DNA of 44,389 nt from NCBI GenBank assembly GCA_028687645.1, contig JAQTZQ010000013.1:1-44389 (forward strand), given 5' to 3'. Below are positions 15,674-34,401 of this stretch, piece by piece (position 1 is the stretch's first letter; each line of letters begins with the position of its first letter). This stretch comes from Rhodocyclaceae bacterium. GTDB taxonomy: Bacteria; Pseudomonadota; Gammaproteobacteria; Burkholderiales; Rhodocyclaceae. Below the pieces are notes generated by a model that was not told the origin of the DNA, searched no databases, and saw nothing but the letters and a program-made list of their open reading frames with translations. Position numbers and translations under genes: made by a program.

Positions 15674-15685
15674 GTTACGGTCAAC
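15674..15685 (+). repeat. copy 2 of the 12-mer GTTACGGTCAAC
   Basis: Exact copy directly upstream of, and overlapping by three bases, the left arm of the purA terminator hairpin. It also covers the stop codon of the convergent M23 peptidase gene. Confidence 0.6.
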
Positions 15686-16634
15686 GGGCTTTCGGGCCCG
15701 TTTTTTGTTCCAGGATAGGCGGTGCTTGGCCTGGGGAGCGATAGTCTGCCGTCACTTTCTGCCGATATTGCGGGGCAAAGACGTAGGCGGGGTTGCCGAC
15801 GTAAAAGCGAATCGGCACTGAAATACTGCCAAACCCATTGCTCTTGCGCAGTAGTTGATGCACGACAAAATGCAGATGTGGGCCGGAGGAATAGCCGGTA
15901 CTTCCTGATCGCCCAATGACGCTTCCGACCGTTACCCGCTGCCCGACACCCACCTGAACCCCGCTCGGCGCCAAATGTCCGTAGGTGGCGATACTGTCAT
16001 CGGCATGCAGGATGCGCACATGGTTGGCCATGCTCAGCATCGCCGGATCTTTGCCGCCAAATTGATTGTGGCCTTCGGCGGCGATGACGATGCCACTGCG
16101 CGCGGCGACGATGGGCGTGCCCTCGGGCATGGTGAAATCAATGGCTTGCTCACTATCCGGCGTGTTGTGCGTCACCAGCGGGCCGCCCGGTGCTTGGCCA
16201 ATGATGAAACTGAGTCCGTCAGCGAAGGGCAGGCGATAGGTGGCGCTGGTTTCGTGCCGGGCGCGAAAATTTCCCGGTAAAAAATGAGATTGCGTCGAAA
16301 AACGCAGGCCGCGTGCCGGATTCGCCGCGCGTATCGTCGCCAGTGTGGTGTCGCTATTGGCGCGAACCACGACTGCCAAGGGAAAAATTTGATCGGCGCT
16401 GATGTTGTCGACCGAGTTTAGTGAGACTAAAACCGAAACCGGGGCATGGCCCCGGTTGTGCGCAATGAGCTGATAGCTATTGCTGACTTTTTCTGAAGTG
16501 ACAGAAAACGGGTAATGCGACTTGGCCAGTGTCTGGGCACTGAGCAGCAAACCCAAGGCCAGCGTGACAAGGAGTCGCCAGTGTTTAACGGGGCGGGGCA
16601 ACAGCCTGCCAGCCTTCCGGGCAATGTCGGACAT
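15681..16634 (-). CDS. exported M23 (LytM-type) metallopeptidase
   Basis: Putative periplasmic zinc endopeptidase acting on peptidoglycan cross-bridges. From the ATG at 16634 the protein has 317 residues: an N-terminal signal or anchor (about residues 20-37, ending TLAKSHYPF), a beta-rich domain, then the M23 domain. The metal and catalytic residues are visible: H156...D166 (THNTPDSEQAIDF), H220 (YGHL) and H253/H255 (HLHF). The start is uncertain: this ATG overlaps the upstream gene by 50 bases, and a TTG at about 16601 with GGAAGG upstream is an alternative. The last codons lie inside the purA terminator hairpin. Confidence 0.85.
   Translation of the reverse strand: MSDIARKAGRLLPRPVKHWRLLVTLALGLLLSAQTLAKSHYPFSVTSEKVSNSYQLIAHNRGHAPVSVLVSLNSVDNISADQIFPLAVVVRANSDTTLATIRAANPARGLRFSTQSHFLPGNFRARHETSATYRLPFADGLSFIIGQAPGGPLVTHNTPDSEQAIDFTMPEGTPIVAARSGIVIAAEGHNQFGGKDPAMLSMANHVRILHADDSIATYGHLAPSGVQVGVGQRVTVGSVIGRSGSTGYSSGPHLHFVVHQLLRKSNGFGSISVPIRFYVGNPAYVFAPQYRQKVTADYRSPGQAPPILEQKTGPKAR
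15683..15707 (+). terminator. intrinsic terminator of purA
   Basis: Stem AACGGGC (15683-15689) and GCCCGTT (15696-15702) with loop TTTCGG, followed by a run of T. It lies 28 bases after the purA stop. The hairpin is also the last eight or so codons of the convergent M23 peptidase gene. Confidence 0.9.
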
Positions 16635-16971
16635 AAGGGTAGTAGCTTCCAGCAGAGTTGCAAAAATACCAGTTGCCGGAGCCCTGCTGTGGCGCGACGG
16701 GTTGTGGTGGTGCTTCGTAAACATAATTTGGGCGCGGCTGATAACTATTATAGGCGGCAGCGCCAATAGCCAGTCCGGTCAGGGCAACCACGGCAGCTGG
16801 GACACCCCAGTGACGGCTGTGGGGGCGATGGGCCGGCGGTGGATTGTAGTGCCGTTGATGGCCGTAAGAGCGGGAAGGGCCATTGTCGTGGCGCCGCCAA
16901 TCAGCCTGAGCATTTCCGATCAGGCTGGCAGAAATGAGAAGTACGAGGCTGGTAACTTTGAGTGTTTTCAT
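16585..16971 (-). CDS. small exported protein of unknown function
   Basis: The 128 residues start MKTLKVTSLVLLISASLIGNAQAD, a standard signal peptide cleaved after AQA. After that comes a His/Arg/Pro-rich segment (RRHDNGPSRSYGHQRHYNPPP), one hydrophobic segment (VPAAVVALTGLAIGAAAY, about residues 56-73), a Pro/Tyr-rich stretch and a C-terminal YFCNSAGSYYPYVRHCPEGW motif with two cysteines that may pair. Similar short exported proteins ending in a YYPYV-C-GW motif are common in betaproteobacteria, but I know no function. Its 3' end overlaps the proposed start of the M23 peptidase, so the two are probably co-transcribed. It is divergent from the hyf-like operon. Confidence 0.75.
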   Translation of the reverse strand: MKTLKVTSLVLLISASLIGNAQADWRRHDNGPSRSYGHQRHYNPPPAHRPHSRHWGVPAAVVALTGLAIGAAAYNSYQPRPNYVYEAPPQPVAPQQGSGNWYFCNSAGSYYPYVRHCPEGWQAVAPPR

Positions 16972-17214
16972 GATTTTGGCTTCAGAGGTCTGGTGGATAC
17001 AAGCCGAATAACGCACCCACCTGATCGCCGATGACAAGTTTTTGTCGGGTAATTGTTAGCAAATGTTTCATTTTTGCCGGATATATTGACCGCGATCCCC
17101 CAAGAACTGCCCCCGATTGATATTATTGCCGCCTCATGAAAAACGTCGCACACAATTAAGCATGGGTTTCATCCTCTTTATTCAATCTAACCATACGCCA
17201 AGTTCGGGAGCGCT

Positions 17215-19224
17215 ATGCTGAACTGGCTGACGATAGACTGGATCTTGCTGGTCATCGTCGTATGGTTATTGATTGGCGTCGCTGGCATTGTCGCTCTGCG
17301 GCGTTTTCGCTTCGTCGCGCGCGTACTTTTTCCGATTGGTGGATTTGTCTGCTTGAGCCTGGCCGGGCTTGCCTTGCAAGCCTTGGGAAACACCCCGGAA
17401 ACCGCCATTCTCCCGATTGGTTTGCCGCAGCTGCCGTTTCATTTGCGTCTCGATAACCTGAGTGCATTTTTCCTGCTATTAATTGGTGGTGTCGGCGCCG
17501 GTGTCTCGCTGTTTGCCGCCGGTTACTTTCGCAAGGGCGCGGGAACGCCACCCGGGCTGCTCTGTCTCGAATACCACATATTCCTCGCCAGCATGGTGCT
17601 GGTTGTTCTGGCTGACGATGCTTACGCCTTCATGGTGGCCTGGGAAACAATGGCGCTTTCGTCTTTTTTCCTGGTGACCGCCAATCACAAGGTGCCAGAA
17701 GTACAAAAAGCTGGCTTTCTCTATCTGCTGATTGCCCATATCGGCGCCATTGCCATTTTGCTTTGCTTTGGCGTGTTGCAGGCCAATACGGGTGATTACA
17801 CCTTTGACAACATGCGCGCCATGACGCTGACGCCGTTCTGGGCGTCCACCGCCTTTCTGCTGGCGCTGTTTGGTTTTGGTGCCAAGGCGGGGATGTTGCC
17901 TTTGCATATCTGGTTGCCGGAAGCGCACCCCGCAGCGCCGTCTCCGGTCTCCGCGCTGATGAGTGCGGTGATGCTCAAGACCGCCATTTACGGATTGCTG
18001 CGCATTTCTTTTGACCTGCTGCACACGCATGTCTGGTGGTGGGGCGGATTGTTACTGGCGTTGGGTTTGCTGACTGCCTTGTTTGGGGTGGTTTTTGCTG
18101 CCGTGCAAACCGACATGAAGCGCTTGCTGGCCTATTCATCGATCGAAAACATTGGCTTGTTGCTCGCCGGGATGGGCCTGACGCTCATTTTTCATGCCTA
18201 TCAGATGCCCGCTCTGGCAGCTTTGTCACTAACGGCAGTGCTCTATCACACTGCCAGTCATGCCTTTTTTAAGAGTCTTCTGTTTCTCGGTACAGGTTCG
18301 GTGTTGCATGCGACCAGCGAGCGCAACCTTGGCCGCCTCGGCGGATTGATGCATTTCATGCCCTGGGTCGCCTGGCTGGTGTTGATTGGTGTTTTTGCGA
18401 GTTCTGGCTTGCCGCCTTTTTCCGGCTTTGTGTCGGAATGGCTTTTGCTGCAAAGCTTTTTGTTTACGCCGGGATTGCCCGATTCTTTCCTCAACATGCT
18501 GATTCCGATTGTCGCGGCGATGATTGCCTTGATCGCCGCGCTGGCTGGTTACGCCATGGTGAAATTCTTTGGCGTGATTTTTCTCGGGCAACCGCGAGAA
18601 GAGAAGCTGAAAGAGGCGCACGACGCCGGCATCTGGGAAAAAATCGGCATGATCTGGCTGGCCGCTTGGTGTATTGCCCTGGGTTTATTCCCCAATTTTT
18701 TAATCGGGCTGATTGATTCGGTCACCGTTTCATTGGTTGGTGCGGGACTAGCGCAACAAGCCCAATCAAGCGGCTGGCTGTTTTTGGTGCCGAGTTCCAT
18801 CGAGCGTGCCAGTTTTGCGCCGCTGTTGTTCCTGCTCGGGATTGCCCTGGGTTGTTTGTTGGCGTATGTCCTACTGCGGCGTTTGTACCACGGGGGCTTA
18901 CGCCGGGCTGCGCCCTGGGATTGTGGTCATCCGTGGCAGACGGCACGCATGCAGGACACCGCTGAAGGCTTCGGGCAGCCGATTCGACAGATGTTTGAAC
19001 CCTTCATGCGGTTGACGCGCAAGATACCGACGCCTTTTGACAAAGAGCCGGTTTACAAGGTGACGATCGAAGATCATTTCTGGTTTTGGCTTTACTTGCC
19101 GATCGCCAAGGTTATTGAGTTTGTTGCTGGCCAGGTTGGGCGTTTGCAGCAAGGACGGATTTCGATTTACCTGCTTTACAGCTTCATCACGCTGTTGTTC
19201 ATGTTGTTCCTGGTGCAAAAATGA
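17215..19224 (+). CDS. hyfB: HyfB-like antiporter subunit (NuoL/MrpA family)
   Basis: Large ion-translocating membrane subunit of a complex I-like or hydrogenase-4-like machine. The 669 residues have about 15 membrane helices and the Proton_antipo_M signature: EYHIFLASMVLVVLADDAYAFMVAWE, GFGAKAGMLPLHIWLPEAHPAAPSPVSALMSAVMLK and MKRLLAYSSIENIGL. The helix-12 lysine and the conserved glutamate are present. ATG is preceded by GGGAG at 17206-17210. It is the first gene of a six-gene operon and overlaps the next by four bases. I found no confident promoter in the 243-base divergent gap. The symbol is by family only, since the complex is probably not a hydrogenase. Confidence 0.9.
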   Translation: MLNWLTIDWILLVIVVWLLIGVAGIVALRRFRFVARVLFPIGGFVCLSLAGLALQALGNTPETAILPIGLPQLPFHLRLDNLSAFFLLLIGGVGAGVSLFAAGYFRKGAGTPPGLLCLEYHIFLASMVLVVLADDAYAFMVAWETMALSSFFLVTANHKVPEVQKAGFLYLLIAHIGAIAILLCFGVLQANTGDYTFDNMRAMTLTPFWASTAFLLALFGFGAKAGMLPLHIWLPEAHPAAPSPVSALMSAVMLKTAIYGLLRISFDLLHTHVWWWGGLLLALGLLTALFGVVFAAVQTDMKRLLAYSSIENIGLLLAGMGLTLIFHAYQMPALAALSLTAVLYHTASHAFFKSLLFLGTGSVLHATSERNLGRLGGLMHFMPWVAWLVLIGVFASSGLPPFSGFVSEWLLLQSFLFTPGLPDSFLNMLIPIVAAMIALIAALAGYAMVKFFGVIFLGQPREEKLKEAHDAGIWEKIGMIWLAAWCIALGLFPNFLIGLIDSVTVSLVGAGLAQQAQSSGWLFLVPSSIERASFAPLLFLLGIALGCLLAYVLLRRLYHGGLRRAAPWDCGHPWQTARMQDTAEGFGQPIRQMFEPFMRLTRKIPTPFDKEPVYKVTIEDHFWFWLYLPIAKVIEFVAGQVGRLQQGRISIYLLYSFITLLFMLFLVQK

Positions 19225-20168
19225 GCATATCGGGCTTCCTTTCCCAGTTGCTGGCAATTATTGTGGCCTTGGTTCTGGCACCGCTGCTCATGGGTTGGGT
19301 CAATCAATGGCGCGCATGGCTGCAAAACCGTACGGCGCCCGGATTACTTCAGCCCTATCGGATGCTGAACAAGCTGTTTCACAAGGAGTCGATTGTTGCC
19401 GAGACGGCCTCGCCAATTTTCCGTCTGGCACCTTATATCGTCTTCGGCTGCATGGTCTTGGCCTGCGCCATTATTCCCACGCTGTCGACTGATTTACCCA
19501 TGTCGCCAGCCGCCGACGCAATTGCGCTGGTCGGCCTGTTTGCCGTGGCTCGCGTTTTTATTTCGCTGGCGGCAATGGATATTGGTACGGCTTTCGGCTC
19601 TTTGGGCGCGCGCCGGGAGATGCTGATCGGTTTTCTGGCCGAACCGGCTTTGCTCGCCATCCTGTTCAATGCCTCGCTGATCAGTAATTCGACGGCATTG
19701 ACCAGCATTGTTGAATATCTGGCCCACAAGGAATTTGCCATCTATCCCAGTCTGGCCTTTGCCGGCATCGCCTTCACCATGGTCTCCTTTGCCGAGAATG
19801 CGCGTGTTCCGGTTGATAACCCGGCGACCCATCTGGAACTCACCATGATTCACGAAGCGCTGATCCTGGAGTATTCCGGTCGGCATCTGGCCTTGATTGA
19901 ATGGGCGGTGGCGCTCAAGTTATTTGCCTATTCGTGTATCGGCCTGGCCTTGTTCTTTCCGTGGGGGATTGCCGAAGCCGAGGCGCCGGTTGTGTTGATT
20001 TTTGCCCTGCCAGCCTTGGTCTTGAAACTTGCTGTTGGGGGTTTTCTTTTGGCGCTGATCGAAACACTGTCGGCCAAAATGCGTATTTTCCGTGTGCCGG
20101 AATTCCTCGCCACTGCGTTTTTACTGGCAGTGATCGGCATGCTGGTTCATTTCCTGCTCGGCGCATAA
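19221..20168 (+). CDS. hyfC: HyfC-like membrane subunit (NuoH/HycD family)
   Basis: Membrane subunit that connects the redox arm to the antiporter arm, equivalent to NuoH in complex I and HycD/HyfC in formate hydrogenlyase. The 315 residues form about eight membrane helices. The conserved cytosolic loop is AENARVPVDNPATHLELTMIHEALILEYSGR (about residues 193-223), carrying the acidic residues of the quinone or proton pathway. ATG overlaps the hyfB stop. Confidence 0.9.
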   Translation: MSISGFLSQLLAIIVALVLAPLLMGWVNQWRAWLQNRTAPGLLQPYRMLNKLFHKESIVAETASPIFRLAPYIVFGCMVLACAIIPTLSTDLPMSPAADAIALVGLFAVARVFISLAAMDIGTAFGSLGARREMLIGFLAEPALLAILFNASLISNSTALTSIVEYLAHKEFAIYPSLAFAGIAFTMVSFAENARVPVDNPATHLELTMIHEALILEYSGRHLALIEWAVALKLFAYSCIGLALFFPWGIAEAEAPVVLIFALPALVLKLAVGGFLLALIETLSAKMRIFRVPEFLATAFLLAVIGMLVHFLLGA

Positions 20169-20828
20169 ATGAACGCTCTCATTCCCCAACTGATCAATCT
20201 GTTCGCCGCCGTGATCCTTATTCTGGCCTTCGCGATGCTCTCCCAGCGCCGGATTCTGAATTTGATCCACCTCTACACCTGGCAAGGCCTGGCGGTCGTC
20301 GGATCAACAACGGTGGTGGCCTATGTGACAGATCAGCACCATCTTTATTATTCGGCAGCGCTGACCATGGCGCTCAAGGTTATTTTGATTCCCTGGATGC
20401 TGCATCGCCTGATCAACCGCCTGAACGTGCGTTGGGATATCGAGACCCTGGTCAATATTCCGACCTTGATGATCGTCGGTATTGCCCTGGTGGTTTTTGC
20501 CTTTAACGTGGCGCTGCCAATCTCACGTTTTTCAGAAACGGTTGCCCATGGCACCCTCGGCATTGCGCTGGCCTGCGTACTGCTCTCATTTTTGATGATG
20601 ATTACCCGCGCCAAGGCGGTACCGCAGGTGATAGGTTTTCTGGCGATGGAAAATGCCTTGTTTCTGGCGGCGACATCGGCCACCTACGGCATGCCGATGG
20701 TCGTTGAACTGGGTATTGCACTCGATGTGCTGGTCGGCATTCTGATCATGGGGGTGTTCATGTTCCAGATTCGCGAGCAGTTCGACAGCCTGGACATCAG
20801 CCACCTTGAGAAACTGAAGGAAGACTGA
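20169..20828 (+). CDS. hyfE: HyfE-like membrane subunit
   Basis: The 219-residue protein has about seven membrane helices and belongs to the HyfE family, whose C-terminal part resembles the small antiporter-associated subunit NuoK/MrpC. In MENALFLAATSATYGMPMVVELGIALDVLVGILIMG the buried glutamates typical of NuoK are visible. It starts directly after the hyfC stop and ends six bases before hyfF. HyfE occurs in hydrogenase-4 and its relatives but not in formate hydrogenlyase-1 (Hyc). Confidence 0.88.
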   Translation: MNALIPQLINLFAAVILILAFAMLSQRRILNLIHLYTWQGLAVVGSTTVVAYVTDQHHLYYSAALTMALKVILIPWMLHRLINRLNVRWDIETLVNIPTLMIVGIALVVFAFNVALPISRFSETVAHGTLGIALACVLLSFLMMITRAKAVPQVIGFLAMENALFLAATSATYGMPMVVELGIALDVLVGILIMGVFMFQIREQFDSLDISHLEKLKED

Positions 20829-20833
20829 ACCGC

Positions 20834-22291
20834 ATGAATGCGCTCTACTTTGTTTTTGGGATTCCGCTGCTCGGTGGCTTGGTGCTGGCGCTGGTCGGGC
20901 ACCGCAGTTATGCCCGGGATCTCAACGTCGCCTTCAGTACTGGTAGTTTTATCGCGGCCTGTTTTTTGTCCGTTCAGGTGATTGATCATGGCCCCATGTT
21001 TGCCATGGACAAGCAGTTTTTGATTGATCCACTCAATGTGTTTTTAGTTTCGCTGACCGCTTTTGTCGGCATGACGACGGCCATTTTTTCGCGACCCTAT
21101 ATGCGAGTCGAAGAGGATCACGGAAAAATGACACCGAGCCGCATGCGCCTCTATCACAGCATGTATCAGTTTTTTGCCGTGACCATGCTGGTGGCTTTGA
21201 CGACCAATAATTTGGGCACGCTCTGGGTGACGATGGAGGCCGCCACGCTGACCACGGTTTTACTGGTTTCCGTTTACCGCACACCGGCCAGTCTTGAGGC
21301 GGCATGGAAATATTTCATTCTGTGCGGTGTCGGCCTTGCCCAGGCACTTTTTGGCACCATCCTGCTTTACATGGCAGCGGACAGGGTGATACCGGAGGGT
21401 GTCGATGCGCTATTGTGGAGCAATCTCAATGTGGTCAAGGGGCAGTTGAATCCGACCATCATGTCTGTGGCTTTTGTTTTTTTGCTGTTGGGTTATGGTA
21501 CCAAGGTCGGCCTGGTGCCGGTTCATAACTGGTTGCCGGATGCGCATGCCGAAGGCCCGACGCCGATTTCCGCCGTGCTCTCCGGCTTGTTGTTGAACGT
21601 CGCGCTGTATGCCGTTTTGCGCTTCAAAGTACTAACCGACGGTGCCTTGCAGAGCAATTTCGCCGGCAACTTACTGATCGGCTTTGGCTTGCTCTCGGTC
21701 GTCGCTGCTGCCTTTTTCCTGTCGCGACAAAAAGACGTCAAGCGCATGTTTGCCTATTCGTCGATTGAGCATATGGGGCTGATGACCTTTGCCTTTGGCT
21801 TGGGTGGCCCGGTCGCCAATTTTGCCGGTTTGCTGCACATGACGTTGCATTCGCTGATCAAGTCGGCGATCTTCTTTTCGGTCGGCCATGCAACGCAAAA
21901 GGCCGGTTCACAGATCATGGACGATATTCGCGGCCTGATGAAAGTCAGCCCGACCGTGGGTTGGGGTTTGATGCTGGGTACGCTGGCCATTCTCGGCATG
22001 CCGCCGTTTGGTGTTTTTGCCAGTGAATTTCTGATTTTGACCACCGCCATGCGAGATCTGCCATGGGCCACACCGTTTTTGTTACTGGCGCTGGGGGTGG
22101 CATTTGCCTCAATTTTCAGCCGCGTGCAGCCGATGGTGTTTGGTGACACGGTACTGAAACCTCTGGAGCATCCACCCGCCTTGTTGCCGGTCTTTGTCCA
22201 CCTGGCATTAGGCCTGATGCTGGGTTTATACATTCCCCCTTATCTGAACGCCTGGTACTTACAAGCGGCTCTGTTGATTGGCGGCCAATGA
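20834..22291 (+). CDS. hyfF: HyfF-like antiporter subunit (NuoN/MrpD family)
   Basis: Second antiporter-like membrane subunit, 485 residues and about 14 helices. The signature regions are WVTMEAATLTTVLLVSVYR, GYGTKVGLVPVHNWLPDAHAEGPTPISAVLSG and VKRMFAYSSIEHMGLM, with the conserved Glu and Lys residues of the proton channel. With HyfB it gives two antiporter modules; the third (HyfD) of E. coli hydrogenase-4 has no counterpart here. Its stop overlaps the hyfG start. Confidence 0.9.
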   Translation: MNALYFVFGIPLLGGLVLALVGHRSYARDLNVAFSTGSFIAACFLSVQVIDHGPMFAMDKQFLIDPLNVFLVSLTAFVGMTTAIFSRPYMRVEEDHGKMTPSRMRLYHSMYQFFAVTMLVALTTNNLGTLWVTMEAATLTTVLLVSVYRTPASLEAAWKYFILCGVGLAQALFGTILLYMAADRVIPEGVDALLWSNLNVVKGQLNPTIMSVAFVFLLLGYGTKVGLVPVHNWLPDAHAEGPTPISAVLSGLLLNVALYAVLRFKVLTDGALQSNFAGNLLIGFGLLSVVAAAFFLSRQKDVKRMFAYSSIEHMGLMTFAFGLGGPVANFAGLLHMTLHSLIKSAIFFSVGHATQKAGSQIMDDIRGLMKVSPTVGWGLMLGTLAILGMPPFGVFASEFLILTTAMRDLPWATPFLLLALGVAFASIFSRVQPMVFGDTVLKPLEHPPALLPVFVHLALGLMLGLYIPPYLNAWYLQAALLIGGQ

Positions 22292-23841
22292 TGCAGATCG
22301 GAGATTTTTCGTTCAAGCTTGAGGCCATGGCAGCGCCTTTGCCCATCTGGCGTGCAACTTGCTCTGCGGCTGACTGGTCCGCTGTGGCTCAATCCGTTGC
22401 CATCAATGGTGGACGTCTGCTCAGTCTATGGGGCAGCGACCGGCGTGATGGTGAGGCCGGAGGCTTCGTCATTTCAGTCGCTTACGCCAATACCGAAGGC
22501 TTACTTTGGCTGGATTTGTTGCTGGATAAGGATGTTACGGTCTACCCCGATATCTCGGGTATTTTTCCTTGCGCCAATCGCATGCAGCGAACAATAGGCG
22601 ATCTGCTCGGCGTCTTTGCCGAGTCGGCGGAGGATAAGCGTCCGTGGCTGAATCACGGCACTTGGCCGGCGACTTATTTTCCGCTGCGGCAAGAGGCGAC
22701 GGGGTTGGAGCAGTTTTCCGACTGCGCCGCTGAGGATTATCCTTTTGTACGGGTTGAGGGCGATGGTGTCCATGAAATCGCGGTGGGGCCGGTGCATGCC
22801 GGCATTATCGAGCCGGGGCATTTCCGGTTTTCAGTCGTTGGTGAGCGCGTTCTGCGCCTTGAAGAGCGCTTGGGTTACAAACACAAAGGCATCGACAAAC
22901 TGTTCGAGCGGACCAACGCGCTGGATGGTGCACGCTTGGCCGGGCGGGTTTCTGGTGATTCAACGGTGGCCTTCTCCTGGGCTTACTGCATGGCGCTGGA
23001 AAGTATTGGCAATACGCAACTGCCCCCTCGTGCTGCAGCGTTTAGAGCCTTGCTACTGGAGCGTGAACGCGTAGCCAATCATCTTGGCGATCTTGGCGCG
23101 CTGGCCAATGACGTGGCCTTTGCCTTTGGTCTGACGCATTTCATGCGCCTCAAGGAAGACTGCCTGCGCCTCAATCAGCGGCTTTTCGGCCACCGCTTGC
23201 TGATGGATTGCATCATTCCCGGCGGTGTTACGGTCAACCTCGAAAATGAGGGTGTTTTTGATTTAATGACTCAGTGCAAAGAAATCTCCGGGGAGGTCAA
23301 AAAGTTGCGTGCGGTTTATGAGGATCACTCCGGATTGCAGGATCGTTTCATTTCTACCGGGCGGGTTAGTCACGAACTGGCTGTCACCTTGGGTTTGAAT
23401 GGATTTTCCGGGCGGGCGAGTGGCGTTACCAGTGATTTGCGTGCGGATTTTGCCATGGCGCCCTACGCTGATTTGGGGGTCAGGAGGGCTGTGCATTGCA
23501 ATGGCGATGTAGCGGCACGCGCTACAGTGCGCTTTGATGAACTACTCGAATCCTTGCGCTTGATTCCCAAGATCGTCAGTGAATTACCGGGTGGCGATAT
23601 TTTTGTGCAGCCCGTATTCGATGGCGCCAGAAAGCAGGGGGCCGGCTGGATCGAGGGCTGGCGCGGCGAGGTGTTTGTGGCACTGGATTCCGATGGTGAG
23701 AAAATCCACCGTTGCCATTGTCACGATCCTTCGTGGCAAAACTGGCCGGTGCTCGAACATGCGGTGATCGGCAATATTGTTCCCGATTTTCCGTTGATCA
23801 ATAAGTCCTTCAATCTCAGTTACGCGGGGCCGGATCGCTGA
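22288..23841 (+). CDS. HyfG-like large subunit without nickel-ligand cysteines (Ehr-type)
   Basis: Fusion of a NuoC-like domain (about residues 25-150) and a NuoD/hydrogenase large-subunit domain (about 165-517), as in HycE/HyfG. In true group 4 [NiFe] hydrogenases two CxxC motifs hold the nickel-iron site. Here the N-terminal motif reads S222-G-D-S225 (in AGRVSGDSTVAFS) and the C-terminal DPCxxC reads D480-P-S482-W-Q-N485. All four ligands are therefore lost, while the flanking residues remain conserved. No C-terminal maturation extension is evident. It fits the large subunit of energy-converting-hydrogenase-related (Ehr) complexes. The real substrate is unknown. Annotation as an active hydrogenase or formate hydrogenlyase would be wrong. 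Confidence 0.88.
   Translation: MMQIGDFSFKLEAMAAPLPIWRATCSAADWSAVAQSVAINGGRLLSLWGSDRRDGEAGGFVISVAYANTEGLLWLDLLLDKDVTVYPDISGIFPCANRMQRTIGDLLGVFAESAEDKRPWLNHGTWPATYFPLRQEATGLEQFSDCAAEDYPFVRVEGDGVHEIAVGPVHAGIIEPGHFRFSVVGERVLRLEERLGYKHKGIDKLFERTNALDGARLAGRVSGDSTVAFSWAYCMALESIGNTQLPPRAAAFRALLLERERVANHLGDLGALANDVAFAFGLTHFMRLKEDCLRLNQRLFGHRLLMDCIIPGGVTVNLENEGVFDLMTQCKEISGEVKKLRAVYEDHSGLQDRFISTGRVSHELAVTLGLNGFSGRASGVTSDLRADFAMAPYADLGVRRAVHCNGDVAARATVRFDELLESLRLIPKIVSELPGGDIFVQPVFDGARKQGAGWIEGWRGEVFVALDSDGEKIHRCHCHDPSWQNWPVLEHAVIGNIVPDFPLINKSFNLSYAGPDR
23227..23238 (+). repeat. copy 3 of the 12-mer GTTACGGTCAAC
   Basis: Exact copy inside the hyfG-like gene, read as Val-Thr-Val-Asn in GGVTVNLEN. Confidence 0.6.
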
Positions 23842-24401
23842 TGTTGAAAATGCTCATACAAATGGCCAGACAAGGGATAGGGACCGAGCCTAAGCCGGAG
23901 ATCGATGCCGATTCCTTCCCGGCGGAACATCGTCTGCATCAAGAAATTCTCAACGTACTGGGGCGTGCGCTGACCATCCGGGAAGTTGATGCCGGCTCGT
24001 GTAACGGCTGTGAACTTGAGATCCACGCCACCAACAACCTGTATTACAACCTGGAAGGGCTGGGCATCAAGTTTGTCGCCAGCCCGCGTCACGCTGATAT
24101 GTTGCTCGTCACCGGGCCGGTTTCGCGCAATATGGCGATGGCCTTGCAGCGCACCTACGAAGCCACGCCCGATCCCAAACTGGTCGTGGCGGTGGGTGAT
24201 TGCACGATCAATGGCGGTATTTTTGGTGAAAGCTACGCCTCCTGTGGTGGCGTTGACAAAGTTATCCCGGTCGATCATTTCATTCCAGGTTGCCCACCGC
24301 CACCGATTGAAATACTTAAAGGTATTCTGACGGCAGTGCGCCAGGTCAGTGGCAAGAAAAAGGATGCGTCAGGACAAAAGCAGGAAGGCTTCTCTGGCTG
24401 A
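23841..24401 (+). CDS. hyfI: HyfI-like small subunit (NuoB family, one 4Fe-4S cluster)
   Basis: Electron-transfer subunit that holds the N2-type cluster next to the large subunit. The 186 residues keep all four ligands: C54 and C57 (SCNGCELEI), C121 (GDCTINGG) and C151 (PGCPPPP). The iron-sulfur route to the former active site is therefore intact even though the nickel site of the large subunit is gone. ATG overlaps the previous stop by one base. It is the last gene of the operon; the short C-terminal tail is Lys/Gln-rich. No HyfA or HyfH ferredoxin gene follows. Confidence 0.92.
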   Translation: MLKMLIQMARQGIGTEPKPEIDADSFPAEHRLHQEILNVLGRALTIREVDAGSCNGCELEIHATNNLYYNLEGLGIKFVASPRHADMLLVTGPVSRNMAMALQRTYEATPDPKLVVAVGDCTINGGIFGESYASCGGVDKVIPVDHFIPGCPPPPIEILKGILTAVRQVSGKKKDASGQKQEGFSG

Positions 24402-24518: not shown

Positions 24519-24603
<85 letters not shown>

Positions 24604-24623
24604 ACATCTGCAAAGAGCGGCGA

Positions 24624-24651
24624 ATTATAAAGAAAGAACAAAACATGTCAA
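24624..24651 (-). promoter_or_regulatory. consensus sigma70 promoter of tRNA-Leu, overlapping the rnr start codon
   Basis: On the minus strand, TTGACA (24651-24646) is separated by 16 bases from TATAAT (24629-24624), matching the consensus at all 12 positions. The expected start is near 24617, about 14 bases before the mature 5' end, preceded by a GC-rich discriminator (TCGCCGC) as in stringently controlled stable-RNA promoters. The -35 box lies within codons 1-3 of rnr on the other strand. Confidence 0.85.
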
Positions 24652-30306: not shown

Positions 30307-30333
30307 GCTATGATCTTGATCAAGGAGTTCAAA

Positions 30334-30627
30334 ATGAATTTGCCGGCACGCGATGGTGATGGTTATCTGGAGAGCATGGACGATTGGACGCCGGAGATCG
30401 GTTTGGCGATGGCGCAAGCGGATGGCGTGGATGTTGCCGGTGAAAAGTGGGCACAGATACTCAGGGCGCGCGATTACTTTGAAGAATTTCAGGCCGTGCC
30501 GCCGATTCGCAAGTTTGCCAAGTATCTCGATCAGGATCAAAAAGCAGTTTTTGATCTGTGGATGACCGGCCCGATGAAGCCGATTACCAAATATGGCGGC
30601 CTGCCCAAGCCGACCGGTTGCGTCTGA
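30334..30627 (+). CDS. DsrC/TusE-family sulfur-carrier-like protein, one cysteine
   Basis: Small cytosolic protein of the DsrC/TusE family, which carries persulfide on a cysteine at the end of a flexible C-terminal arm. The 97 residues end with the diagnostic GLPKPTGCV, so CysA is C96. The second cysteine of true DsrC, expected 11 residues earlier, is T85; no other cysteine exists in the protein. It is therefore TusE-like or an RspA-type DsrC homologue, and not the partner of dissimilatory sulfite reductase. No tusBCD or dsr genes are in the window. ATG 30334 follows AAGGAG at 30322-30327, a strong site. It follows the ArsR-rhodanese gene, suggesting shared sulfur physiology. Confidence 0.88.
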   Translation: MNLPARDGDGYLESMDDWTPEIGLAMAQADGVDVAGEKWAQILRARDYFEEFQAVPPIRKFAKYLDQDQKAVFDLWMTGPMKPITKYGGLPKPTGCV

Positions 30628-33471: not shown

Positions 33472-34401
33472 GTGAACCAAAATAGCGCCAAGGAACTGAG
33501 TGATTTTGATCGCCGTATTCATGCTGAAATGCTCGACAGTTTTGATGAAGAGCTGGAAATGGAGATTGACGACGAGCGAATGAATTACTTGATAGCCGAG
33601 GTGACAGAGGCAGCAAGTGAGTCATCAGATCTGAATCGTCACTTCTACTTTCGCGAGCTGTTTCGGTTGCAGGGCGAATTGGTCAAATTGCAGGACTGGG
33701 TAGTGCACAAAGGCTTGAAAGTGGTTGTGCTTTTTGAAGGCCGCGATGCGGCTGGCAAGGGTGGCGTCATCAAGCGGATTACCCAACGCCTGAATCCTCG
33801 CGTTTGTCGCGTTGCTGCATTGCCGGCACCGAGTGAGCGGGAACGGACGCAGTGGTATTTCCAGCGTTATGTCTCGCATTTGCCGGCAGCCGGGGAAATG
33901 GTCCTCTTTGATCGCAGTTGGTATAACCGTGCCGGTGTCGAGAAGGTGATGGGCTTTTGTAACGACGAAGAGTATGAGGAGTTCTATCGCAGTGTTCCGG
34001 AATTCGAAAAAATGCTGCTTCGCTCCGGCATCATCCTGATCAAGTATTGGTTTTCGATTACCGATGATGAACAGGAGCTGCGCTTCAAAATGCGCATTCA
34101 CGACCCGCTCAAACAATGGAAACTGAGCCCGATGGACATGGAATCCCGTCGTCGCTGGGAGGATTACACCAAGGTCAAGGAGGCCATGTTGGAGCGCACG
34201 CATATTCCAGAAGCGCCCTGGTGGATCATCGAGGCGGTCGACAAGAAAAAGGCCCGGCTCAACTGTATTCATCACTTGCTCAGCCAGGTGCCGTATGGCG
34301 AAATCGAACGCGCGCCGGTGGTTCTGCCAGAACGTGTCCACAACCCGGATTACCTGCGAAATCCGGTTCCGCCTGAAATGTTCGTTCCTGCTGTGTATTA
34401 G
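33472..34401 (+). CDS. ppk2: polyphosphate kinase 2
   Basis: PPK2-family phosphotransferase that uses inorganic polyphosphate to phosphorylate nucleotides (or the reverse). The 309 residues include an N-terminal extension and a single PPK2 domain, as in class I enzymes. Walker A is GRDAAGKGG (about residues 90-98), followed by RLNPRVCRVAALPAPSERERTQWYFQRY; Walker B is FDRSWYNRAGVE (D147). The start is GTG at 33472 with AGAGGA upstream (TAAAGAGGACACTGCACA). It is divergent from the hybrid kinase over 200 bases with no clearly recognisable promoter. Polyphosphate metabolism is prominent in Rhodocyclales. Confidence 0.94.
   Translation: MNQNSAKELSDFDRRIHAEMLDSFDEELEMEIDDERMNYLIAEVTEAASESSDLNRHFYFRELFRLQGELVKLQDWVVHKGLKVVVLFEGRDAAGKGGVIKRITQRLNPRVCRVAALPAPSERERTQWYFQRYVSHLPAAGEMVLFDRSWYNRAGVEKVMGFCNDEEYEEFYRSVPEFEKMLLRSGIILIKYWFSITDDEQELRFKMRIHDPLKQWKLSPMDMESRRRWEDYTKVKEAMLERTHIPEAPWWIIEAVDKKKARLNCIHHLLSQVPYGEIERAPVVLPERVHNPDYLRNPVPPEMFVPAVY

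Follow-up and report, generated by a model that had tools for sequence, protein, structure and literature searches.

The window, the whole 44,389-nucleotide stretch of Rhodocyclaceae DNA that we analysed, carries an operon of six open genes that overlap or abut one another. The operon and its borders contain the following features.

15681-16766, − strand: M23 peptidase-like gene, 5′ neighbour
16585-17037, − strand: 5′ neighbour ORF, no Pfam family
17215..19224, + strand: antiporter-type membrane subunit of 669 aa, hyqB/hyfB-like (920 bits with NF005086 'hydrogenase 4 subunit B', against a cut-off of 667)
19221..20168, + strand: hyqC/hyfC-like NuoH-type membrane subunit, 315 aa (PF00146, 5.9e-36; aligned with HyfC, HycD and NuoH)
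20169..20828, + strand: membrane subunit of 219 aa, hyqE/hyfE-like (1.6e-24 and 87 bits with NF008556 'hydrogenase 4 membrane subunit', short of the cut-off of 136)
20834..22291, + strand: antiporter-type membrane subunit of 485 aa, hyqF/hyfF-like (891 bits with NF005045 'hydrogenase 4 subunit F', against a cut-off of 543)
22288..23841, + strand: large subunit of 517 aa, similar to hyqG, NuoC/D and HycE and lacking the nickel ligands (open ORF)
23841..24401, + strand: small subunit of 186 aa, hyqI-like, with a single [4Fe-4S] site (PF01058, 5.3e-31)
24519..24603, − strand: tRNA-Leu(CAG), bordering the operon

Six relatives that lack the operon also have the tRNA gene at this location. No regulator (hyqR-like gene) was found on the 5′ side, and the interval 17035-17214 contained no match to a sigma-54-like site (TGGCAC-N5-TTGC, at most two mismatches) and no FNR-like site. 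The operon encodes no HyfA/D/H/J, no ferredoxin-docking subunit of the HyfA/HyfH/NuoI type and no NADH module. Subunits B and F exceed the NCBIfam 'hydrogenase 4' cut-offs, and among 60 listed of 90 plasmid relatives of the large subunit, 27 are named 'NADH-quinone oxidoreductase subunit C', two 'nickel-dependent hydrogenase large subunit', two 'HypE' and one 'NADH dehydrogenase 30 kDa', with 28 having no feature or annotation; these names bear out the expectation that such complexes are mis-annotated.

The large subunit aligns with HycE (FHL subunit 5) over residues 76–517 (195 bits). In the alignment with HycE and HyfG the four nickel-ligand cysteine positions are occupied by Ser222, Ser225, Ser511 and Gly514, and the stretches of interest are encoded as follows.

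22951..22962, + strand: codons of S222-G-D-S225, replacing the N-terminal CxxC, aligned with CGIC in HycE and HyfG of E. coli
23725..23742, + strand: codons of D480-P-S-W-Q-N485, not a ligand motif, aligned with AATYAN of HycE
23812..23829, + strand: codons of N509-L-S-Y-A-G514, the true C-terminal ligand position, opposite DPCYSC

The original prediction held that all four ligands are replaced and placed the N-terminal pair correctly at S222-G-D-S225. Its C-terminal pair, D480–N485, is ruled out as a ligand motif by the alignment with HycE and NuoD (TPSFAH), which puts this segment upstream of the ligand pair; two of the four positions were therefore misplaced, with all four ligands still gone. 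An alignment with the ligands elsewhere in the protein had been named as refuting the claim; the C-terminal pair does move, to S511/G514, yet there is no cysteine there either. In an 82-row alignment (the window, 75 of 80 relatives' loci and six loci of the same order), position 222 is Ser in 71 rows, Ala in eight, Cys in one and a gap in two; Gly223 and Asp224 are each found in 80 rows; position 225 is Ser (67), Thr (12) or Ala (1); position 511 is Ser (72), Asn (7), Ala (1) or Cys (1); and position 514 is Gly in 81. The five loci not in this set, read separately, agree with it at the ligand positions. Because the substitutes are conserved across the set, the ligand loss is not a matter of frameshift, as predicted, nor of chance. 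L080, L107, L134, L144, L152 and L117 each have one cysteine among the four positions, L117 being a second copy in the window's own genome. Of the rows fetched, those of Hyq/Ehr type thus have at most one of the four cysteines, and the true hydrogenases have all four. Over 39 rows, 76 positions of the large subunit are invariant.

The large subunit ends one residue past the motif Asp in 81/81 rows of the same clade and in 30/30 rows outside the window's class, and HycE and HyfG continue for 32 further residues after the corresponding Arg. This end coincides with what we take to be the maturation cut site of HycE, and the C-terminal maturation extension of group 4 [NiFe] hydrogenases is absent. 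Among 398 sampled genomes of the phylum, 63 have a Hyq/Ehr-type complex (assigned by score, 35 of them read). HypD is missing from 40 of these 63, and from 15 when only the 26 with a completeness rating of 100% are counted; it is present in all ten HycE-type genomes (two read, L164 and L166; one of three further distant genomes, L165, was also read). The complex does not, at the level of the family, depend on Hyp maturation. In the window's own genome, HypD is encoded on contig C116, together with NiFe hydrogenase matches.

The small subunit keeps its four predicted cluster cysteines (Cys54, Cys57, Cys121 and Cys151), which are present in 70/70 aligned rows; PF01058 is its sole Pfam match and no ferredoxin domain was found. 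In a second Ehr-like operon of the same genome, on contig C188, the small subunit carries fused ferredoxin-type motifs. Subunit B contains the pump residues Glu144, Lys224, Lys255, Lys353 and Glu408, and Glu135, Lys224, Lys343 and Glu398 of subunit F are found in 84/84 rows; the conserved Glu, Lys and Glu of both subunits presumably lie on TM5, TM7 and TM12. The structure model of the large subunit has a clear fold, with a loop (residues 151–199) of pLDDT below 50, and the structural families among the matches listed are FHL and complex I, with no others. The residues that we take to form the quinone site of complex I (His38, Tyr87 and Asp139, Thermus numbering) correspond to Ile174, Gly223 and Asp275. 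Of the quinone site of complex I, only a part is thus retained: the Asp is kept, and the Tyr and His positions are changed.

The operon occurs in six of 16 genomes of the window's order. From 585 matching stretches 80 relatives were kept; the gene order B-C-E-F-G-I is complete in 70 of their loci and the other ten carry only its 3′ genes. In a tree of 71 rows the window falls in a 21-row clade of beta-type rows (support 100/93). The rooting of this tree and its placement of L165, NuoCD and L124 are unreliable, and support is weak (68/69) where the Hyq-like rows part from the others. The commonest recurrent neighbours, recognised by eye from their sequences, are housekeeping-like (scpA, metG, apbC, nadB and maeB), and no redox partner was seen among those looked at. 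A genome of only 0.93 Mb (G217) has kept the operon while its nuoB, nuoC and nuoD are broken fragments; E. coli queries for nuoE, F, G, H and I matched nothing in its fetched stretches, and it has no PF00115 oxidases. G217 also keeps fixABCX-like genes and genes for a succinate/fumarate-type dehydrogenase. FixC is found in seven of the 63 Hyq-type genomes (once as a fragment with a stop) and is absent from the window's own genome; Fix is therefore not a general donor, and the link remains a hint from G217. Nitrogen fixation was likewise rejected as a requirement: nifH exceeds the cut-off in 10/63 Hyq-type genomes versus 27/335 others (Fisher p 0.06), and in the window's own genome no nifH does so.

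With about even confidence, we read these sequences as those of a nickel-free, complex-I-like, redox-driven ion pump, an Ehr-type and Hyq-like complex of six subunits (B, C, E, F, G and I) for which we can suggest a donor and an acceptor. The small subunit would take electrons from, or give them to, a soluble low-potential carrier, most likely ferredoxin or flavodoxin. Beside the cluster, a rebuilt polar pocket (Ser222, Asp224, Ser225, Asn509 and Ser511, with Arg459 and Asp275) may handle a small substrate, most probably a quinone head group, and the reaction would be coupled, in principle reversibly, to H+ or Na+ movement. Such a machine would amount to a minimal complex I minus its NADH module. 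The exchange of the ligands for conserved residues, the missing maturation peptide, the HypD-free genomes, the largely complete gene order among the relatives, the retained cluster cysteines and pump residues, the survival of the operon in G217 while complex I decays and the ferredoxin-type motifs of the C188 small subunit all point this way. The H2 exchange published for Hyq in vivo is the main contrary evidence, and the missing docking subunit, the few genomes with FixC, the loss of the Tyr87 and His38 positions and the low pLDDT of loop 151–199 also count against the pump.

The contrary evidence comes from Azorhizobium caulinodans, the Hyq of which, with its CxxC loss and in vivo hyq-dependent H2 exchange, was missed by the original prediction. 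If Hyq is as claimed, the complex would be a true hydrogenase that lacks a [NiFe] site, handling H2 at a new site beside the small-subunit cluster. Microaerobic H2 evolution (in pmol per 1e9 cells per min) was 61,000 in a delta-hupSL strain versus 14,000 in delta-hupSL delta-hyq, and 56,600 in nifK delta-hupSL versus 1,100 in nifA (PMC3357923), and H2 was still recycled by strains with a 20-gene hup/hyp deletion and by a hyq+ species without hup/hyp (PMC2930871). Both uptake and evolution are attributed to Hyq in vivo, even when nitrogenase is missing and, in part on data not presented, when the hup/hyp genes are. However, all of these data come from living cells; the authors say that they had no cell-free assay, and they admit an uncharacterized further source of H2. 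The hyq deletion slowed diazotrophic growth by ∼20% and added H2 gave no rescue (PMC2650096), and in the sections of PMC12342949 drawn on here H2 did not raise Ehr expression in Nitrospira moscoviensis. Moreover, the 'invariant' cysteines of HyqG (Cys258, Cys491 and Cys497, here positions 273, 504 and 510) are found in 0/81 same-clade rows at each position, and outside the window's class one of the three occurs in only 12/30 rows. We consider this reading unlikely. A further kind of hydrogenase, in which H2 would react at a Ser/Asp/Asn pocket beside the lone [4Fe-4S] cluster without nickel, Hyp or, in the window's clade, the suspected cysteines, seems very unlikely.

We give a small probability to a partnership with a dehydrogenase for one-carbon compounds (FDH-Ehr, or CO dehydrogenase). 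Electrons from formate or CO would then reach quinone or a different acceptor by way of the small subunit, and ions would be pumped. According to the sections of three papers used here, FDH-Ehr has been proposed for other Ehr complexes (PMC6349859), Ehr subunits are more abundant in Geobacter on formate (PMC7894505) and one comammox Nitrospira has hyfBCEFGI adjoining a CO dehydrogenase (PMC5596200). Against this, there is no formate or CO dehydrogenase gene in the 38 scanned of 39 called window genes, none was recognized among the recurrent neighbours looked at, and single E. coli queries for fdoG and fdoH matched nothing in the stretches of G217 that were fetched, a weak result. A similarly small probability goes to a vestigial or regulatory peripheral part on a complex that mainly exchanges ions or aids inorganic-carbon uptake, in the manner of Mrp or DAB modules. 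In four of 91 loci (L037, L038, L052 and L064) the operon does adjoin a dabA-like gene, which is accompanied by antiporter-type subunits; three of these are from Accumulibacter, so the link is not general, although many loci have short flanks, and the invariant cluster cysteines (70/70) and 76 large-subunit positions are unlike a dead cap. A decaying hydrogenase or pseudogene, suggested by the lost catalytic ligands, is most improbable and is refuted at the family level because the operon, with six open and overlapping or abutting genes, is conserved in 80 relatives and outlasts complex I in G217.

Published positions thus clash, Ehr complexes being 'unlikely hydrogenases' and Hyq a 'bidirectional endo-hydrogenase'. 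The absence of ligands and of a maturation peptide, the occurrence without HypD and the retention where complex I is lost now make the question testable, between a nickel-free ion pump that substitutes for complex I, using another donor, and nickel-free handling of H2.

Among known systems, the closest studied relative is the Hyq 'endo-hydrogenase' of A. caulinodans, compared here through the orthologue of Rhizobium 3841 pRL11 (L157), a species named in the Hyq papers; a primer from the A. caulinodans paper had no match in 171 loci. The two share the order B-C-E-F-G-I, the lack of both CxxC motifs and the four HyqI cluster cysteines, and the large subunits are 44.9% identical. The window differs in having no hyqR-like gene on the 5′ side, no match to a NifA/sigma-54 site and no nifH over the cut-off in its genome. 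The loss of both CxxC motifs from HyqG was published in 2012; what the alignments appear to add is that the window's clade also lacks the three HyqG cysteines. Judged by its sequences, the complex is of Ehr type and not an ordinary [NiFe] hydrogenase, as predicted, having a group-4-related large subunit without CxxC and antiporter-type subunits with pump residues. The Ehr complexes of Nitrospira, Geobacter and Margulisbacteria, in the portions of the literature used here, pair antiporter-type subunits with a large subunit that is group-4-like but has no [NiFe] ligands, and they are suspected of coupling redox chemistry to ion translocation; the likeness to them is drawn from published descriptions. 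Formate hydrogenlyase and hydrogenase-4 (HycE and HyfG; structure 7z0s) differ from the window complex, which is without their nickel ligands, maturation peptide and HyfA/D/H/J, and complex I (NuoCD, NuoB, NuoH and NuoL/M/N) differs in its NADH module, for which the window operon has no counterpart.

The source assembly (G000; 4.28 Mb, 310 contigs, completeness 99.7%), probably betaproteobacterial to judge from its closest relatives, carries on contig C75, the window, an operon whose product is a real, conserved Ehr-type complex (energy-converting-hydrogenase-related) of a Hyq-like, largely betaproteobacterial clade. A Pfam scan of 38 of the 39 called window genes revealed no hyf- or hyp-type genes among the 32 scanned outside the operon. 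The features discussed are as follows.

15681-17037 (-): M23 peptidase-like ORF and the ORF that it overlaps (16585-17037, no Pfam family)
17215-24401 (+): six overlapping or abutting genes, B, C, E, F, G and I in E. coli hyf naming
24519-24603: tRNA-Leu(CAG)
24519-24645: region in which the rnr ORF as called (GTG 24576) overlaps the tRNA gene
30310-30627: DsrC-like protein
33472-34401: PPK2 polyphosphate kinase

The last two lie near a Cache/PAS hybrid histidine kinase. The sequence TTGATNNNNATCAA (at most two mismatches) occurs 40 times in the whole window against 19 expected, with no copy just upstream of the operon.

The large subunit was aligned with HycE, HyfG and NuoCD of E. coli MG1655. 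Its SGDS segment (residues 222-225) lies opposite CGIC of the hydrogenases and NLSYAG (509-514) lies opposite DPCYSC; a second, separate alignment places both motifs identically. The main claim of the original prediction, a large subunit without nickel-ligand cysteines, stands, and its second motif is relocated: residues 480-485, aligned opposite AATYAN, are ruled out as the C-terminal ligand motif. In the 82-row alignment, all four ligand cysteines are missing from 80 rows, and two rows have one (L080 at position 222 and L107 at position 511). A wider set of 66 rows contains 53 with none, seven with one and six with all four; the last group consists of HycE, HyfG and four rows from other hydrogenases, two of which represent a single gene. 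Thirty rows from beyond the window's class (including Rhizobium, Bradyrhizobium and Azospirillum; the rest are probably alphaproteobacteria) all have Ser222, Asp224 and Gly514, with cysteine at 225 in two. The protein ends one residue past the motif Asp in 81/81 same-clade rows (pattern search) and in all 30 outside-class rows, whereas HycE and HyfG continue for 32 residues beyond the corresponding Arg. In HycE these 32 residues form the peptide that HycI removes.

The four cluster cysteines of the small subunit are present in 70/70 aligned rows (rows below 80% of subunit length were excluded from residue counts). Subunit B has Glu144 in 74 of 75 rows, Lys224, Lys353 and Glu408 in all 75 and Lys255 in 67; subunit F has Glu135, Lys224, Lys343 and Glu398 in 84/84. 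NuoL, NuoM and NuoN carry Glu, Lys and Glu/Lys in the same columns, whereas E. coli HycC lacks the second of these pump residues (Leu208), which the window's subunits keep. The alignments show, at the level of sequence, a large subunit without nickel ligands combined with an intact proximal cluster site and intact pump residues. Such a complex would take electrons from a low-potential carrier, pass them to a quinone and couple this reaction to ions. Canonical complex I quinone residues are retained only in part, which calls for a distinct type of acceptor pocket.

The genome G217, outside the window's class (0.93 Mb, GC 33%, rated 100% complete), retains hyqB to hyqI, with hyqC interrupted by a contig break, and nuoB, nuoC and nuoD remain as broken fragments. 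E. coli queries for nuoA, E, F, G, H, I, J and K and for hypA-E, cyoB, cydA, fdoG and fdoH had no match at 1e-4 in the fetched stretches, which cover all but a few contig ends (short queries are weak); PF00115 (heme-copper oxidase) and HypD had none across the whole genome. Kept are genes for a succinate/fumarate-type dehydrogenase and ATP synthase, and fixABCX-like genes. The latter encode a FixX-type Fer4_ETF_QO protein, a pair of proteins with ETF domains, and a FixC-like protein that shares 54-61% identity with its counterparts in eleven other genomes. A putative chain from NADH through Fix, ferredoxin, Hyq and quinone to fumarate would explain this gene set; FixC occurs in only 7/63 Hyq-type genomes.

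These 63 genomes (E ≤ 1e-60) come from a survey of 398 Pseudomonadota genomes, 76 of which match at E ≤ 1e-30 and were divided by score, the others being ten HycE-type and three further genomes. HypD (PF01924) is present in 23/63 Hyq-type, 10/10 HycE-type and 0/3 other matching genomes, and in 71 of all 335 non-Hyq genomes; among Hyq-type genomes rated 100% complete, 15/26 lack it. This occurrence without Hyp agrees with a remark in PMC2930871 that hup/hyp-deleted A. caulinodans strains retain the Hyq-linked trait. G000 itself has HypD, on a contig also bearing NiFe hydrogenase matches.

A search of genome contigs (E ≤ 1e-3) gave at least 585 stretches that encode a relative. The best 80 of these, at 55-75% identity, are mostly betaproteobacterial and some gammaproteobacterial records; 70 have the complete ordered operon and ten only its 3' genes, in the same order. 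Nearest among these 80 are L034 (75%), where the operon sits elsewhere beside a malic-enzyme-like gene (identified by eye), and L035 (74%). None of 24 other genomes of the genus (some incomplete) has a close match, whereas 6 of 16 other genomes of the order do, with a best E no higher than 1e-110. The RNase R gene was placed in 12 genomes of the genus; in the six for which its surroundings were compared, these read hflK-hflC-hisZ-purA-(ORF like 16585-17037)-tRNA-Leu-rnr, without matches to B, C, F, G or I. The window has the operon between that ORF and the tRNA gene; because the six genomes lack it between the same neighbours, it was most likely gained beside the tRNA gene. The M23-like gene has no match in the six stretches; only ORF 16585-17037 has a purA/tRNA-Leu counterpart. 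Translation of rnr more probably begins at an ATG near 24645. Three beta-type operons (L045, L054, L040) in records titled Actinomycetes and Sphingobacteriaceae are probably binning errors.

Other operons were also observed. G000 has a second, divergent Ehr-like operon (L117, contig C188, 1778-9002, minus strand). Its large subunit shows 32-35% identity and reads CGDS and DLSYCG at the two motif positions, and its small subunit combines the cluster domain with fused ferredoxin-type motifs. A similar operon adjoins a window-type operon in L111, and a third type lies next door in L042. In L037, L038, L052 and L064 (three of the four Accumulibacter), a dabA-like gene (PF10070 by a scan of L052 alone) and antiporter-subunit genes directly adjoin the operon.

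The in vivo H2 data of PMC3357923 speak against the proposed nickel-free pump. The two are reconcilable only by supposing an indirect effect, in which Hyq would feed another H2 source or be fed by one; an uncharacterised H2 source is acknowledged there by the authors themselves. The same paper (2012) reports that neither CxxC motif is present in HyqG from eight genera, with three cysteines completely conserved, and rates a [NiFe] site as 'uncertain, if not unlikely'. All three cysteines occur in the Rhizobium 3841 protein (L157); the outside-class rows have the equivalents of Cys258 (273) and Cys497 (510) in 30/30 and of Cys491 (504) in 12/30, whereas each occurs in 0/81 rows of the window's clade. 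PMC2930871 (2010) links hyq to N2-fixing microaerophilic alphaproteobacteria; nifH is above cut-off in only 10/63 Hyq-type genomes, and the best 80 of at least 585 relatives are, in contrast to that tie, largely betaproteobacterial. The kind of system is already known: publications describe A. caulinodans hyqRBCEFGI (PMC2650096, PMC2930871, PMC3357923), interpret a Nitrospira hyfBCEFGI operon as a hydrogenase (PMC5596200), and treat Ehr complexes without CxxC as of unknown function (PMC10284858, PMC12342949) or as suspected ion pumps (PMC6349859).
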